DNA of 64,000 bases from contig NZ_CP015285.1 of NCBI RefSeq assembly GCF_001639105.2, positions 302,501-366,500 of the forward strand, read 5' to 3'. This document shows positions 13,764 to 52,647 of the stretch, piece after piece. Under the pieces are notes generated by a model. It was given only the letters and a program-made list of their open reading frames with translations. It made no database searches and was not told where the DNA came from. The position numbers and the translations under genes are program-made. Numbering within the stretch: the stretch's first letter is position 1; every line of letters starts with the position of its first letter. The DNA comes from Azospirillum humicireducens (GTDB taxonomy: Bacteria; Pseudomonadota; Alphaproteobacteria; Azospirillales; Azospirillaceae).

Positions 13764-15251
13764 ATGAAGATGCCGGTGCCGGACAGCGGGGTGATCGCCC
13801 GCCGCCGGGAGATCGTGGAGGCGCTGCGCGCCATCGTTCCCGGCGAAGGCGTGATCGTCGACGAGAACGAGCTGCGCGCCTACGAGTGCGACGGCCTGAC
13901 CGCCTACCGCCAGCTGCCGATGGTCGCCGTTCTGCCCAGCACGGTGGAGCAGGTGTCCCAGGTCCTGAAGACCTGCAAGGCGATGGGGGTGAAGGTGGTG
14001 CCGCGCGGGGCCGGCACCTCGCTGTCGGGCGGCGCCCTGCCGCTGGCCGACGGCGTGCTGCTGGGCATGGGCAAGTTCAAGCGCATCCTCGACATCGACT
14101 ATGCCAACCGCTGCGTCACCGTTCAGCCGGGCGTGACCAACCTCGGCATCTCCAACGCGGTCGCGCATGAGGGCTTCTATTACGCCCCCGACCCATCCAG
14201 CCAGATCGCCTGCACCATCGGCGGCAACATCGCCGAGAATTCCGGCGGCGTGCATTGCCTGAAATACGGGCTGACCACCAACAATGTGCTGGGGCTGGAG
14301 ATGGTGCTGATCGACGGCACCGTCATCCGGCTGGGCGGCAAGCATCTGGACGCCGGCGGCTACGACCTGATGGGCATCGTCACCGGGTCGGAAGGGCTGC
14401 TCGGCGTCGTGACCGAGGTCACCGTCCGCATATTGAAGAAGCCGGCGACCGCCCGCGCGGTGCTGCTCGGCTTTCCCAGCAGCGAGCAGGGCGGCGACTG
14501 CGTGGCCGCCATCATCGCCGCCGGCATCATCCCCGGCGGCATGGAGATGATGGACCGTCCCGCCATCCATGCGGCCGAAGCCTTCGTCCATGCCGGCTAT
14601 CCGCTGGATGTCGAGGCGCTGCTGATCGTCGAGCTGGACGGCCCGGCGGCGGAGGTCGACCATCTGATCGACCGGGTCGAGGCCATCGCCCGGACCAAGG
14701 GCGCCTGTTACGCCCGTGTGTCCAAAAGCGAGGAGGAGCGGCTGGCCTTCTGGGCCGGGCGCAAGGCGGCCTTTCCGGCGGTGGGGCGGATCAGCCCCGA
14801 TTACTACTGCATGGACGGCACCATCCCGCGCAAGGCGCTGCCGCTGGTGCTGCAACGGATGCAGGAGATGTCCGACCGCTGCGGCCTGCGCGTCGCCAAC
14901 GTCTTCCATGCCGGCGACGGCAACCTGCACCCGCTGATCCTCTATGACGCCAACAAGCCGGGCGAGCTGGAGGCGGCGGAGGAGTTCGGCAACGACATCC
15001 TGCGCCTGTGCGTCGAGGTCGGCGGTGTGCTGACCGGCGAGCATGGGGTGGGGGTGGAGAAGCGCGACCTGATGACCGACCAGTTCGACGAGGCCGATCT
15101 GCAGCAGCAGCAGCGGTTGAAATGCGCCTTCGATCCCGACGGTCTGCTGAACCCCGGCAAGGTCTTCCCCACGCTGCACCGCTGTGCCGAGCTTGGCCGG
15201 CTGCATGTCCACCAGGGGGAGCTGCGCTTCCCCGACATCCCGCGCTTCTGA
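13764..15251 (+). CDS. glcD: Glycolate oxidase FAD-binding subunit GlcD
   Basis: This 495-residue flavoprotein subunit of glycolate oxidase oxidises glycolate (or D-lactate) to glyoxylate in the GlcDEF complex. The PP-loop FAD domain is clear: VVPRGAGTSLSGGALPLADG, then the SSQIACTIGGNIAENSGGVH segment and DLMGIVTGSEGLLGVVTEVTV. The C-terminal FAD-oxidase domain holds VFHAGDGNLHPLILYD and the GEHGVGVEKRDLM signature with metal and substrate histidines. It opens a three-gene operon, with glcE only 16 bases downstream. Length agrees with E. coli GlcD (499). Confidence 0.95.
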   Translation: MKMPVPDSGVIARRREIVEALRAIVPGEGVIVDENELRAYECDGLTAYRQLPMVAVLPSTVEQVSQVLKTCKAMGVKVVPRGAGTSLSGGALPLADGVLLGMGKFKRILDIDYANRCVTVQPGVTNLGISNAVAHEGFYYAPDPSSQIACTIGGNIAENSGGVHCLKYGLTTNNVLGLEMVLIDGTVIRLGGKHLDAGGYDLMGIVTGSEGLLGVVTEVTVRILKKPATARAVLLGFPSSEQGGDCVAAIIAAGIIPGGMEMMDRPAIHAAEAFVHAGYPLDVEALLIVELDGPAAEVDHLIDRVEAIARTKGACYARVSKSEEERLAFWAGRKAAFPAVGRISPDYYCMDGTIPRKALPLVLQRMQEMSDRCGLRVANVFHAGDGNLHPLILYDANKPGELEAAEEFGNDILRLCVEVGGVLTGEHGVGVEKRDLMTDQFDEADLQQQQRLKCAFDPDGLLNPGKVFPTLHRCAELGRLHVHQGELRFPDIPRF

Positions 15252-15267: not shown

Positions 15268-16566
15268 ATGACCATCACCACCTTGAAGCCGGAGACCCCC
15301 GCGCAGGCGGCCGACGCGGTGCGTTGGGCGCTGTCGGCCGATGAGCCGCTGGAGATAGTGGGCAGCGGCAGCCGCCGCGGGCTGGGGCGCCCGGTGCGGG
15401 CCGGCCACGCGCTCGACCTGTCGGGCCTGTCCGGCGTCATCGCCTATGAGCCGGAGGAGCTGGTGCTGACCGCGCTGGCCGGAACGCCGATGGACCTGAT
15501 CCGCAGCATGCTGGCCGAGCGCGGGCAGCATCTGGCCTTCGAGCCGCCGGAGGGCGGCACGCTCGGCGGGCTGGTCGCCAGCGGGCTGGCCGGGCCGCGC
15601 CGCATCTCCGCCGGGTCCGCCCGCGACCACACGCTGGGGATATCCGGGATCAGCGGCCGGGCCGAGGCCTACAAGGGCGGTGGCAAGGTGGTGAAGAACG
15701 TCACCGGCTATGATTTGCCCAAGCTGATGGCGGGCTCCTTCGGCACGCTGACCGCGCTGACCGAGATCACGGTGAAGGTGCTGCCGGCGCCGGAGGACAC
15801 CGCGACGCTGCTGCTGTTCGGGCTGGACGACAGGGCGGCGGTGGCGATGCTCGACCGGGCTCTGCGCAGCCCCTACGAGGTGTCGGGCGCTGCCCATCTG
15901 CCGGCGGGGATCGCCGCGCGGTCGCAGGTCGCCGCCGTGGCGGGGGCGGGCGGGGCGGCGACGCTGGTCCGGCTGGAGGGCTTCGGCCCGTCGGTCGCCG
16001 CGCGCGTCACCATGCTGCGCGAGGAATTGCGGGCCGATGCCGTGCTGGGGCGCGACGAGTCGCTGGCGCTCTGGCGCGAGGTTCGGGACGGGGCGGGGCT
16101 GGGGGAGGTGGTTGCTGATGGCCCCCTCCCCAACCCTCCCCCGCCTTTGGCGGGAGAGGGGGCCTTGCCGACGCCGGCCCAATCTCCCTCCACCGCGCAA
16201 GCGGGGGAGGGTCGGGGAGGGGGCAACCGTGGCGACACTCCCCACCTCTGGAAACTCTCGGTTCCCCCCTCGACCGGCCCGTCCACGGTGGACGCCATCC
16301 GCCGCACGCTCGACGTCGAGGCCTTCTACGACTGGGGCGGCGGGCTGGTCTGGCTGACCGCACCGCCCGACTCGGGCGCAACCATCCGCAGCGCGCTCTC
16401 CGCCGGGGGCCATGCGACGCTGGTGCGGGCGCCGGAGGCGGTGCGTGCGGCGACCGACGTGTTCCAGCCCTTGCCGGAGCCGCTGATGACGCTGAGCCGC
16501 CGGGTCAAGGAGAGCTTCGACCCCAAGGGCATCCTCAACCCCGGCCGCATGTATGCGGGGCTGTAA
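15268..16566 (+). CDS. glcE: Glycolate oxidase subunit GlcE, carrying an in-frame repeat insertion
   Basis: This is the second FAD-binding subunit of glycolate oxidase, here 432 residues against about 350 in E. coli. The ATG at 15268 follows the glcD stop by 16 bases. The PP-loop FAD domain shows IVGSGSRRGLGRPV, GGTLGGLVASGLAGPRR and VTGYDLPKLMAGSFGTLTAL. The C-terminal motif DPKGILNPGRMYAGL is intact. Residues about 285-320 are encoded by a palindromic repeat element and read as low-complexity Pro/Gly-rich sequence (PLPNPPPPLAGEGALP...AGEGRGGG). The insertion lies in a loop just before LWKLSVPP. The reading frame stays open, so the protein is probably functional. Confidence 0.93.
   Translation: MTITTLKPETPAQAADAVRWALSADEPLEIVGSGSRRGLGRPVRAGHALDLSGLSGVIAYEPEELVLTALAGTPMDLIRSMLAERGQHLAFEPPEGGTLGGLVASGLAGPRRISAGSARDHTLGISGISGRAEAYKGGGKVVKNVTGYDLPKLMAGSFGTLTALTEITVKVLPAPEDTATLLLFGLDDRAAVAMLDRALRSPYEVSGAAHLPAGIAARSQVAAVAGAGGAATLVRLEGFGPSVAARVTMLREELRADAVLGRDESLALWREVRDGAGLGEVVADGPLPNPPPPLAGEGALPTPAQSPSTAQAGEGRGGGNRGDTPHLWKLSVPPSTGPSTVDAIRRTLDVEAFYDWGGGLVWLTAPPDSGATIRSALSAGGHATLVRAPEAVRAATDVFQPLPEPLMTLSRRVKESFDPKGILNPGRMYAGL
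16121..16225. repeat. Palindromic repeat element, copy A (inside glcE)
   Basis: A 105-base element (35 codons) has two nested hairpins: CCCTCCCCCGCC...GGCGGGAGAGGG on the left and CTCCACCGCGCAAGCGGGGGAG on the right. Outer ends also pair (GCCCCCTCCCC with GGGGAGGGGGC). It shares architecture and most of its ends with the copies at 29143-29273 and 52536-52647. Unlike those it lies inside a coding region, and its length is a multiple of three. Confidence 0.85.
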
Positions 16567-16583: not shown

Positions 16584-17909
16584 ATGCAAACCAACTTCTC
16601 GCTGGCCCAGCTGGCCGATGCCGCGATCCGCGACTCGGAACAGATCCTGCGCAAATGCGTGCATTGCGGCTTCTGCACCGCGACCTGCCCGACCTACACC
16701 ATCCTGGGTGACGAGCTGGACAGCCCGCGCGGCCGCATCTACCAGATCAAGGACATGCTGGAGAAGGGCGGGCCGCCGCCCGAAACCACGGTCAAGCACA
16801 TCGACCGTTGCCTGTCCTGCCTGTCCTGCATGACGACCTGCCCGTCGGGTGTCCATTACATGCATCTGGTCGATCACGCCCGCGCCCATATCGAGGCGAC
16901 CCACCGCCGACCGCCGGCCGACCGGGCGGTGCGCGACCTGATCGCGCGGGTGCTGCCCAACCCGCGGCTGTTCCGGCTGGCCCTGCTGGGCGCTTCCCTG
17001 GGCCGGCCCTTCCGCGTCCTGCTGCCGAAGCGGCTGTCGGCCATGCTGGCGCTGACCCCGTCCAGCATCCCGGCGCCGAGCTACAGCGACCGGCCGGGCG
17101 TCCATCCGGCCGAGGGGCCGCGGAAGAAGCGGGTGGCCCTGCTGATCGGCTGCGCCCAGCAGGTGCTGGCGCCGCAGATCAACGAGGCGACCATCCGCCT
17201 GCTGACCCGGCACGGTGTCGAGGTCGTGGTGTCGAAGGGCGCCGACTGCTGCGGCGCCCTGACGCACCATATGGGCAAGGAGGATCTCGCCCACGCCGCC
17301 GCGAAGAAGACGATCGACGCCTGGACGAGGGAGATCGAGGGCGAGGGACTCGACGCCATCGTCATCAACGCGTCCGGCTGCGGCACCAGCGTGAAGGATT
17401 ACGGCCACATGTTCCGCGAGGATCCGGCCTATGCCGCCAAGGCGGCGCGGGTGGCGGATCTCGCGAAGGACGTGACAGAGCTGATGGACGGGATCGGGCT
17501 GGCCCGCCCGGTGGTGGAGACGGGGCAGGCCATCGCCTACCACTCCGCCTGTTCGATGCAGCACGGCCAGCGCATCAAGGAGCCGCCGCGCGCCCTGCTG
17601 CGCGCCGCCGGATTCCTGGTGAAGGAGATCCCCGACGCGCATCTGTGCTGCGGGTCGGCCGGCACCTACAACATGCTGCAGCCGGACCTGGCGGGGGAGC
17701 TGCGGACCCGCAAGGTCGCGGCCATCGAAAGCACCCAGCCGCAGGCGGTGGCGGCCGGCAATCTCGGCTGCATCACCCAGATCGCATCCGGCACGGGGCT
17801 GCCGGTGGTCCACACGGTGGAGTTGCTGGACTGGGCGACCGGCGGCCCGATGCCCGACGCGCTGACCGGCCGGGCGGCCTTCCGGCAGGGCGGCGCGCGG
17901 GCGGCCTGA
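16584..17909 (+). CDS. glcF: Glycolate oxidase iron-sulfur subunit GlcF
   Basis: This 441-residue subunit carries electrons from the flavin subunits to the quinone pool. Two 4Fe-4S binding motifs lie in the first 100 residues (CVHCGFCTATCPTY and CLSCLSCMTTCPSG). Two CCG-type cysteine domains follow, with CCGALTHHMGKED and CCGSAGTYN motifs. It starts 17 bases after glcE, which completes glcDEF. Length agrees with the family (about 407 in E. coli, somewhat longer in alphaproteobacteria). No terminator was found directly after it. Confidence 0.95.
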   Translation: MQTNFSLAQLADAAIRDSEQILRKCVHCGFCTATCPTYTILGDELDSPRGRIYQIKDMLEKGGPPPETTVKHIDRCLSCLSCMTTCPSGVHYMHLVDHARAHIEATHRRPPADRAVRDLIARVLPNPRLFRLALLGASLGRPFRVLLPKRLSAMLALTPSSIPAPSYSDRPGVHPAEGPRKKRVALLIGCAQQVLAPQINEATIRLLTRHGVEVVVSKGADCCGALTHHMGKEDLAHAAAKKTIDAWTREIEGEGLDAIVINASGCGTSVKDYGHMFREDPAYAAKAARVADLAKDVTELMDGIGLARPVVETGQAIAYHSACSMQHGQRIKEPPRALLRAAGFLVKEIPDAHLCCGSAGTYNMLQPDLAGELRTRKVAAIESTQPQAVAAGNLGCITQIASGTGLPVVHTVELLDWATGGPMPDALTGRAAFRQGGARAA

Positions 17910-28097: not shown

Positions 28098-29123
28098 ATG
28101 AGCAACCAGCAGCCCGCCGTCACCTTCGAGGAAATCCGCGCGCTCGTGCGCAACCTGCCCGGCCCCGACCTGGAGGCCGGCACCGCGGCCCTCCAGCGCG
28201 AACGGCAGCTGACCAAGCCGGCGGGCTCGCTCGGCCGGCTGGAGGAGATCGCGCAGTGGATGGCGACCTGGCAGGGCGAGCACCCGGCCGAGGTCCGCCG
28301 CCCGCGCGTCGCCGTCTTCGCCGGCAACCATGGCGTGGCCGCCCGCGGCGTCTCGGCCTTCCCGGCCGAGGTGACGGTGCAGATGGTCGCCAACTTCCAG
28401 AACGGTGGTGCCGCGGTCAACCAGCTCTGCGAGGTGGCCGACGCCGACCTGCGCGTCTACGAACTGGACCTGGAGAACCCGACCGCCGACTTCACCCAGG
28501 GTCCGGCCATGGGTGAGGAGGAATGCTGCCGCACCATGGCCTACGGCATGATGGCGGTGGAGATGGGCGTCCAGCTGCTGGCGCTGGGCGAGATGGGCAT
28601 CGCCAACTCGACCTCGGCGGCGGCGATGTGCCTCGCCCTGTTCGGCGGCGAGGCGGCCGACTGGACCGGCCGCGGCACCGGCATCGACGACGCCGGGCTC
28701 GCCCGCAAGATCGCCGCGGTGGAGGCCGGCGTCGCCGCCAACCCGCAGGCCAAGGACGACCCGTTCGAGGCGCTGCGCTGCCTCGGCGGCTACGAGTTCG
28801 CCGCCATCGCCGGCGCCATCCTGGCCGCCCGCGTCGCCCGCGTGCCGGTTCTGCTCGACGGCTTCGCCTGCACCGCCGCCGCCGCCGTGCTGTACAAGGC
28901 CGACCGCCGCGCGCTCGACCACTGCATGGTCGCCCACCGTTCGGTCGAGCCGGGCCACACCCGCCTGATGCAGGCCATTGGCAAGGAGCCGCTGCTGGAT
29001 CTCGGCATGCGGCTGGGCGAGGGCTCGGGTGCGGCGCTGGCGATCAACATCGTGAAGTCGGCTGTCGCCTGCCACGCCGGCATGGCGACCTTTGCCGACG
29101 CGGGCGTTGCCACGCAGGGGTAA
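28098..29123 (+). CDS. cobT: Nicotinate-nucleotide--dimethylbenzimidazole phosphoribosyltransferase
   Basis: CobT makes alpha-ribazole phosphate from nicotinate mononucleotide and 5,6-dimethylbenzimidazole for the lower ligand of cobalamin. The 341 residues fit the family (about 350). Recognisable parts are KPAGSLGRLEEIAQWMATWQ, VFAGNHGVAARGVSAFP, the GEMGIANSTSAAAMCLALFG ribose-binding stretch and the C-terminal LGEGSGAALAINIV with the catalytic glutamate. No other cobalamin genes are adjacent. It is followed by a palindromic repeat and a convergent membrane-protein gene. Confidence 0.95.
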   Translation: MSNQQPAVTFEEIRALVRNLPGPDLEAGTAALQRERQLTKPAGSLGRLEEIAQWMATWQGEHPAEVRRPRVAVFAGNHGVAARGVSAFPAEVTVQMVANFQNGGAAVNQLCEVADADLRVYELDLENPTADFTQGPAMGEEECCRTMAYGMMAVEMGVQLLALGEMGIANSTSAAAMCLALFGGEAADWTGRGTGIDDAGLARKIAAVEAGVAANPQAKDDPFEALRCLGGYEFAAIAGAILAARVARVPVLLDGFACTAAAAVLYKADRRALDHCMVAHRSVEPGHTRLMQAIGKEPLLDLGMRLGEGSGAALAINIVKSAVACHAGMATFADAGVATQG

Positions 29124-29142
29124 GTGAGGGGCGTGGGGGCCT

Positions 29143-29273
29143 GTCGCCCCCTCCCTAACCCTCCCCCGCGTTCCGCGGGAGAGGGGACTGCCGCCGCTCT
29201 TGCATTTACGTCACGCCGACAAGCGTCCTGCCCCCTCTCCCGCGAAGCGGGGGAGGGATGGGGAGGGGGCGAC
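29143..29273. repeat. Palindromic repeat element, copy B
   Basis: This 131-base element lies between convergent genes. Outer ends pair perfectly (GTCGCCCCCTCC with GGAGGGGGCGAC). Inside are two hairpins: CCCTCCCCCGCGTTCCGCGGGAGAGGG on the left and CCCTCTCCCGCGAAGCGGGGGAGGG on the right, separated by a spacer that includes ACTGCCGCCG and CGCCGAC. The arrangement and spacer words match copy C (52536-52647). On either strand it could act as a strong RNA hairpin at the transcript ends. Confidence 0.85.
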
Positions 29274-29288
29274 CGATGCTGAACTCCC

Positions 29289-50542: not shown

Positions 50543-52521
<1,979 letters not shown>

Positions 52522-52535
52522 GGTCTCGGCAGCGA

Positions 52536-52647
52536 TGCCCCCTCCCTAACCCTCCCCCGCTAATGCGGGAGAGGGGACTGCCGCCGAACGCCGACAAAGG
52601 TCCAATTCCCTCCCCCGCCCAGCGGGGGAGGGTCAGGGTGGGGGCAG
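52536..52647. repeat. Palindromic repeat element, copy C
   Basis: This 112-base element in the thiC-greB convergent gap has the same layout as copies A and B. TGCCCCCTCCCTAACCCTCC pairs outwardly with GGAGGGTCAGGGTGGGGGCA. Inside are CCCTCCCCCGCTAATGCGGGAGAGGG and CCCTCCCCCGCCCAGCGGGGGAGGG. The spacer words ACTGCCGCCG and CGCCGAC are shared with copy B. Two strong hairpins could also serve as the transcript ends for the flanking genes. Confidence 0.85.

Follow-up and report, generated by a model that had tools for sequence, protein, structure and literature searches.

Most known cases of palindromic repeats inserted in frame into protein-coding genes come from Rickettsia or from isolated reports on REPs, and each usually offers a single snapshot. 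Rickettsia palindromic elements (RPEs) are 105–146 bp long and are tolerated in frame inside conserved genes (Ogata et al. 2000; PMC2229807); they have been reported in 19 frames, and the gmk product stays active despite its insert (PMC2229807). REPs of the GTAG and CGTC families form inverted hairpin pairs, mostly in the gaps between convergent or unidirectional genes and near the 3′ end, with some copies intragenic, and in two Xanthomonas species recB carries REPs at nearly the same position (PMC3733652). CGTC REPs, defined by a CGTC end tag and an 8–9 bp stem whose first two positions are AT, have no known transposase and have been listed from Azospirillum lipoferum (PMC3733652). MITEs such as ERIC/RU-1, NEMIS, and RUP are ~100–200 bp long, with terminal inverted repeats, a stable RNA fold, and occasional in-frame fusion (PMC2229807, PMC2759123).

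Here, we discuss a palindrome inside the glycolate oxidase gene glcE of Azospirillum humicireducens, analyzed in a stretch of 64,000 nucleotides (the window), in the whole genome, and across the genus. Like the RPEs, it is read in frame in a conserved gene and tolerated; unlike the RPEs, which occupy many genes, the Azospirillum element is found essentially in one, and the likeness is one of description, not of alignment. Our literature coverage was partial, and within it we found no paper on this element or on the glcE case. The type of event is already known, and glcE is an unusually clear natural series: one site can be traced in ~40 related free-living species, from an element-free ancestor through full, half, and remnant copies to loss, and a matched non-coding site (cobT) is available alongside. 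This enables a direct test of how proteins tolerate and clear a selfish repeat, in soil bacteria amenable to culture and engineering.

The palindrome and its host gene

The host gene, glcE (15268–16566, plus strand, taken from the first in-frame ATG), encodes the FAD-binding subunit of glycolate oxidase (NF008439, 294 bits against a cut-off of 284; PF01565; AlphaFold model). It is flanked on the same strand by its operon partners, glcD upstream (13764–15251; best hits NF008408/TIGR00387) and glcF downstream (16584–17909; NF008434 over cut-off). The core of the element, delimited by repeat search, folding, and BLAST against its own genome, lies at 16121–16224, has no assigned strand, and consists of two inverted hairpin halves. 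Its left terminal arm, GCCCCCTCCCCAACCCTCCCCCGC (16121–16144, plus strand; repeat search and consensus of 104 ends), and its right arm, an inverted copy (16201–16224, minus strand; repeat search), are 24 nt each and 96% complementary, with a 56-nt center between them. A second, shorter inverted repeat pairs 16120–16131 with 16153–16164. The RNA fold of the element reached −89.2 kcal/mol, compared with a mean of −59.0 for dinucleotide shuffles (z = −7.4; 0 of 200 as stable). The palindromic element with two nested hairpins reported in the earlier note is present as described, and it is read in frame. However, the inverted repeat proper is 104 bp, and some copies show traces of a longer element for another ~20 bp beyond either end, so the 105 bases or 35 codons given there are not the true length of the insert. 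In glcE, these traces may correspond to a weakly conserved left outer part of the GTGTCGGCT..GATTGCCCCC type (16102–16120, from the flank listing) and a right outer part (CAACCGTGGCGACACTCCCCACC; 16225–16248), the latter suggested by the flank listing and by scars in A. oryzae and TSO35-2; neither has an assigned strand.

The segment translates as PLPNPPPPLAGEGALPTPAQSPSTAQAGEGRGGG and codes for GlcE residues ~285–319, and the Pro/Gly-rich peptide PLPNPPPPLAGEG...AGEGRGGG directly precedes LWKLSVPP, as had been claimed. In the AlphaFold model (mean pLDDT 82.7; 42-sequence alignment), whose fold resembles FAD-linked D-lactate dehydrogenases, pLDDT falls below 50 at residues 282–320, flanked by a confident helix (262–274) and a confident strand (326–331). 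In this model, the segment has the appearance of a disordered loop joining confident elements.

Copies elsewhere and known families

We found about a hundred copies of the element in this genome (6.86 Mb). BLAST against its own genome returned 91 matches, both strands counted, including many intergenic copies with 80–85% identity to the glcE element over its full length. A search with an 18-base pattern from the arm, in which two mismatches were allowed, gave 185 matches, for which a reversed-pattern control was uninformative because the pattern is nearly identical when read backwards. Two further copies outside genes in the window, already noticed from the sequence, are both there, after cobT (28098–29123; copy at ~29146–29270, before a convergent gene) and 3′ of thiC (50653–52521; copy at ~52537–52646), neither with an assigned strand; however, the genome holds around a hundred copies, not three.

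From the matches listed, we drew up a catalogue of 85 copies, including 52 with two arms, which is a sample rather than every copy in the genome; a few entries may be chance (e.g., L061 near 2532 and L100 near 2443), and bases are masked in some of the copies on plasmids. The copies share the end consensus TTGCCCCCTCCCYAACCCTCCCCCGC, and the outward similarity seen in some of them reads GTGTCGGCTKMCGA. Roughly 80 of the 85 fit an intergenic position, and the distance from stop codon to element peaks near 15–35 nt. With third-position GC as a coding signal, which is a crude heuristic, only the glcE copy (1 of 85) lies in an open frame with high values on both sides (0.91 and 0.92), and it is the only copy that is convincingly intragenic. 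The genes flanking 81 copies, that of glcE included, were convergent in 31 cases, tandem in 50, and divergent in none; the lack of a divergent pair among 81 would rarely arise by chance. The stem pair adjoining the hairpin loop was paired in 94% of copies versus 73% in shuffles, with G-C, A-T, and T-A all occurring. This pair covaries; the hairpin itself has been kept, at the DNA or RNA level.

A genus-wide peptide search, in which 30 loci were inspected, found only two glcE copies inside a gene. A translated search of plasmids with the 36-residue peptide had no matches, probably owing to low-complexity filtering. In PLSDB, all 33 element-bearing records are from Azospirillum, and most of their best places have no annotated gene underneath. 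The earlier view of a dispersing element tolerated inside a gene stands as far as the dispersed copies and the in-frame position in a conserved gene are concerned, but a tendency to enter genes, and with it the frequent in-frame entry into many genes that marks the RPEs, was not found (1 of 85 copies; only glcE among 30 loci). A candidate in-gene copy on plasmid p3 of A. brasilense Cd (L213, 3001–3102) was rejected, as its overlap with the annotated gene, which encodes a heavy-metal P-type ATPase, is limited to the final 46 bases, where the copy forms the C-terminal tail of the protein. For two hypothetical proteins in the annotation, the N-terminal end overlaps a copy, and their starts may be misannotated.

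The element agrees with REPs and BIMEs in the broad sense: it forms inverted hairpin pairs, occurs in many copies 3′ of genes, and is rarely found between divergent genes. As with the GTAG and CGTC REPs, its hairpin pairs lie near gene 3′ ends, mainly between convergent or unidirectional genes, and the glcE copy is intragenic; unlike in those families, the ends have no tag and the stems are longer and GC-rich. A GTAG tag was found in 6 of 129 end regions (2.0 expected), without a consensus, and a CGTC tag in 7 of 129 ends (13.0 expected); the GC-rich stem also lacks the AT at the first two positions of CGTC REPs. A profile search found no Y1/RAYT transposase (PF01797) in this genome; across the genus, 9 of 41 genomes have the family. 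The element shares with ERIC/RU-1, NEMIS, and RUP the size range, the stable RNA fold, the in-frame fusion, and terminal inverted repeats, here the 24-bp arms and the end consensus; unlike these MITEs, it has no detected target-site duplication (of the many offsets tried, the best gave 5 of 48 versus 1.6 expected, k = 3). Rfam gave only chance matches, far under the gathering scores. Because it lacks the tag and transposase of the GTAG family and the tag and stem of the CGTC family, we class the element only broadly, as REP/BIME-like or MITE-like.

The glcE site across Azospirillum

We compared 40 Azospirillum glcE genes (relatives, extra loci, and named genomes) with seven outgroups. The element occupies one site throughout, with both arms in 10 of the 40 genes, the right half in nine, and an eroded remnant in two; it is absent from the remaining 19. 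Thus, the alignment of related GlcE proteins proposed in the earlier note did reveal orthologues that lack the segment at the same place, close relatives included: the nearest genomes by flanking identity (~93%) have no glcE element. Nor, as the genomic copies attest, is the element confined to glcE. Five of the 19 element-free genes belong to basal species, and the outgroups are likewise without the element; in these outgroups and in most basal Azospirillum, the linker from REVRD to WKLS measures ~10–15 residues, and in G027 it is somewhat longer. Both the brasilense-type and the lipoferum-type clades include carriers, and because the site is common to these two large clades, the glcE insertion is neither recent nor lineage-specific.

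All 40 glcE alleles, with 19 distinct lengths among them, have a length divisible by three. At the cobT site, copies of the same element fall into all three phases (eight, seven, and six genomes); that is, length is unconstrained there. Similarly, 65 of 121 genomic arms would place a TAG in the glcE frame versus none of the 10 two-armed glcE copies (p = 0.0014, computed on copies that are not independent). In the right arm (16201–16224), the common genomic variant GGGTTAGGG would give such a TAG, and the A. humicireducens copy has TCGG, giving CGG. The multiples-of-three lengths and the missing TAG match the demands of a surviving working gene.

The right half is nearly invariant in nine brasilense-type genomes (SPASAGEGRGGG). 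Arm types (HPNPPPLGGGG, LPNPPPPLAGEG) are discordant with the tree, and strain B21 carries a full copy though nested among empty genomes; both count against a single insertion. We put the discordant arm types down to probable exchange with other copies or to possible recombination between species.

At the 3′ site of cobT (29124–29288 in the window; loci L216–L245), eight lipoferum-clade genomes (G004, G007, G009, G013, G014, G021, G024, and G025) have the element neither at cobT nor in glcE, and mostly carry a short hairpin in its place at cobT, such as GTGAGGGCTTTCCTGGCCCTCAC.

Origin and fate of the glcE copy

We consider it probable that glcE received one old REP/BIME-like or MITE-like insertion, which was tolerated in a permissive loop and later deleted in frame repeatedly, its arms probably having been exchanged. 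The source would be the dispersed, two-armed, GC-rich Azospirillum element, whose other copies are nearly all hairpins downstream of stop codons. Entry would have preceded the split of the brasilense-type and lipoferum-type clades and would have taken place in the linker between the helix (model residues 262–274) and the strand (326–331), in a phase and sequence variant free of stop codons, so that GlcE would have gained a disordered Pro/Gly-rich loop that it tolerated. Many in-frame shortenings or deletions would have followed, with recombination between short direct repeats of the GGGGAGG and CCCCA types as the route in some lineages, and exchange with copies elsewhere in the genome has probably rewritten part of the arms.

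Alternatively, the linker may be an insertion hot spot that received several independent insertions, of which only those in frame survived. On the glc-operon tree, a single gain requires 9 losses and a history without loss requires 9 gains (unordered minimum, 8 changes); the costs are about equal, and parsimony is therefore undecided, on a tree that was built from one operon and with which recombination of glcE alleles between species remains compatible. Repeated insertion would also suit the arm variants that disagree with the tree, and orthologous cobT-site copies are likewise very different between close species. However, every carrier has the element at the identical codon site, no target-site duplication or target consensus was detected, and copies are otherwise almost never intragenic. 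Moreover, scars in several empty alleles indicate that losses did occur. The empty alleles of two A. oryzae genomes (z = 7.1–7.5) and of TSO35-2 (z = 9.8) resemble the right outer part of filled alleles far more closely than shuffles do, and they do not match the outgroup linker; the signal is weaker in A. lipoferum (z = 4.7), and G001, G003, G007, and B506 showed little or no scar in the same comparison. In A. oryzae, the break lies within GGGGAGG, a motif found in both the left flank and the right arm (read from the sequences, with no statistics), which fits deletion between short direct repeats. As judged from these alleles, some empty genes are evidently deletion products, clearly so in A. 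oryzae and TSO35-2. Because of the identical site and the scars, we favor the single old insertion, and independent insertions at a hot spot seem unlikely.

It is very unlikely that the element has been co-opted, with its RNA hairpin or the loop regulating glcE/glcF expression or GlcDEF assembly: the RNA fold is very stable and the right half is nearly unaltered in the nine brasilense-type genomes, but the element has been lost in many species with the operon otherwise visibly unaltered, and the loop is disordered by prediction. A home-grown low-complexity expansion that is merely repeat-like, as the Pro/Gly-rich product and the GC-rich gene might suggest, is hardly credible for a two-armed palindrome that folds with z = −7.4, and we rejected it on the full-length matches (80–85% identity) to many intergenic copies.

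Beyond the single insertion, it is conceivable, albeit doubtful, that fixed-site copies, both in glcE and between genes, are constantly rewritten by exchange with the ~hundred others, and that copies at gene ends act as an interchangeable 3′-end hairpin, swapped in some lineages for a plain terminator-like hairpin. If so, the loop of an enzyme would be kept in step with a genomic repeat.

We also searched for similar elements outside the genus at one threshold. None was found in two sampled genomes of the same family, and elements with 72–93% identity occurred in a few Alphaproteobacteria outside the family (G091, G213, G309, G157, G192, G200, and G298). In addition, several Azospirillum copies (L068, L069, L104, L062, L089, and the cobT site of G002, L218) carry a second, unrelated palindrome within the hairpin loop, e.g., CGATCGGACCGGCCTTTGGCCGGCCGAGG; these are repeats nested in repeats.
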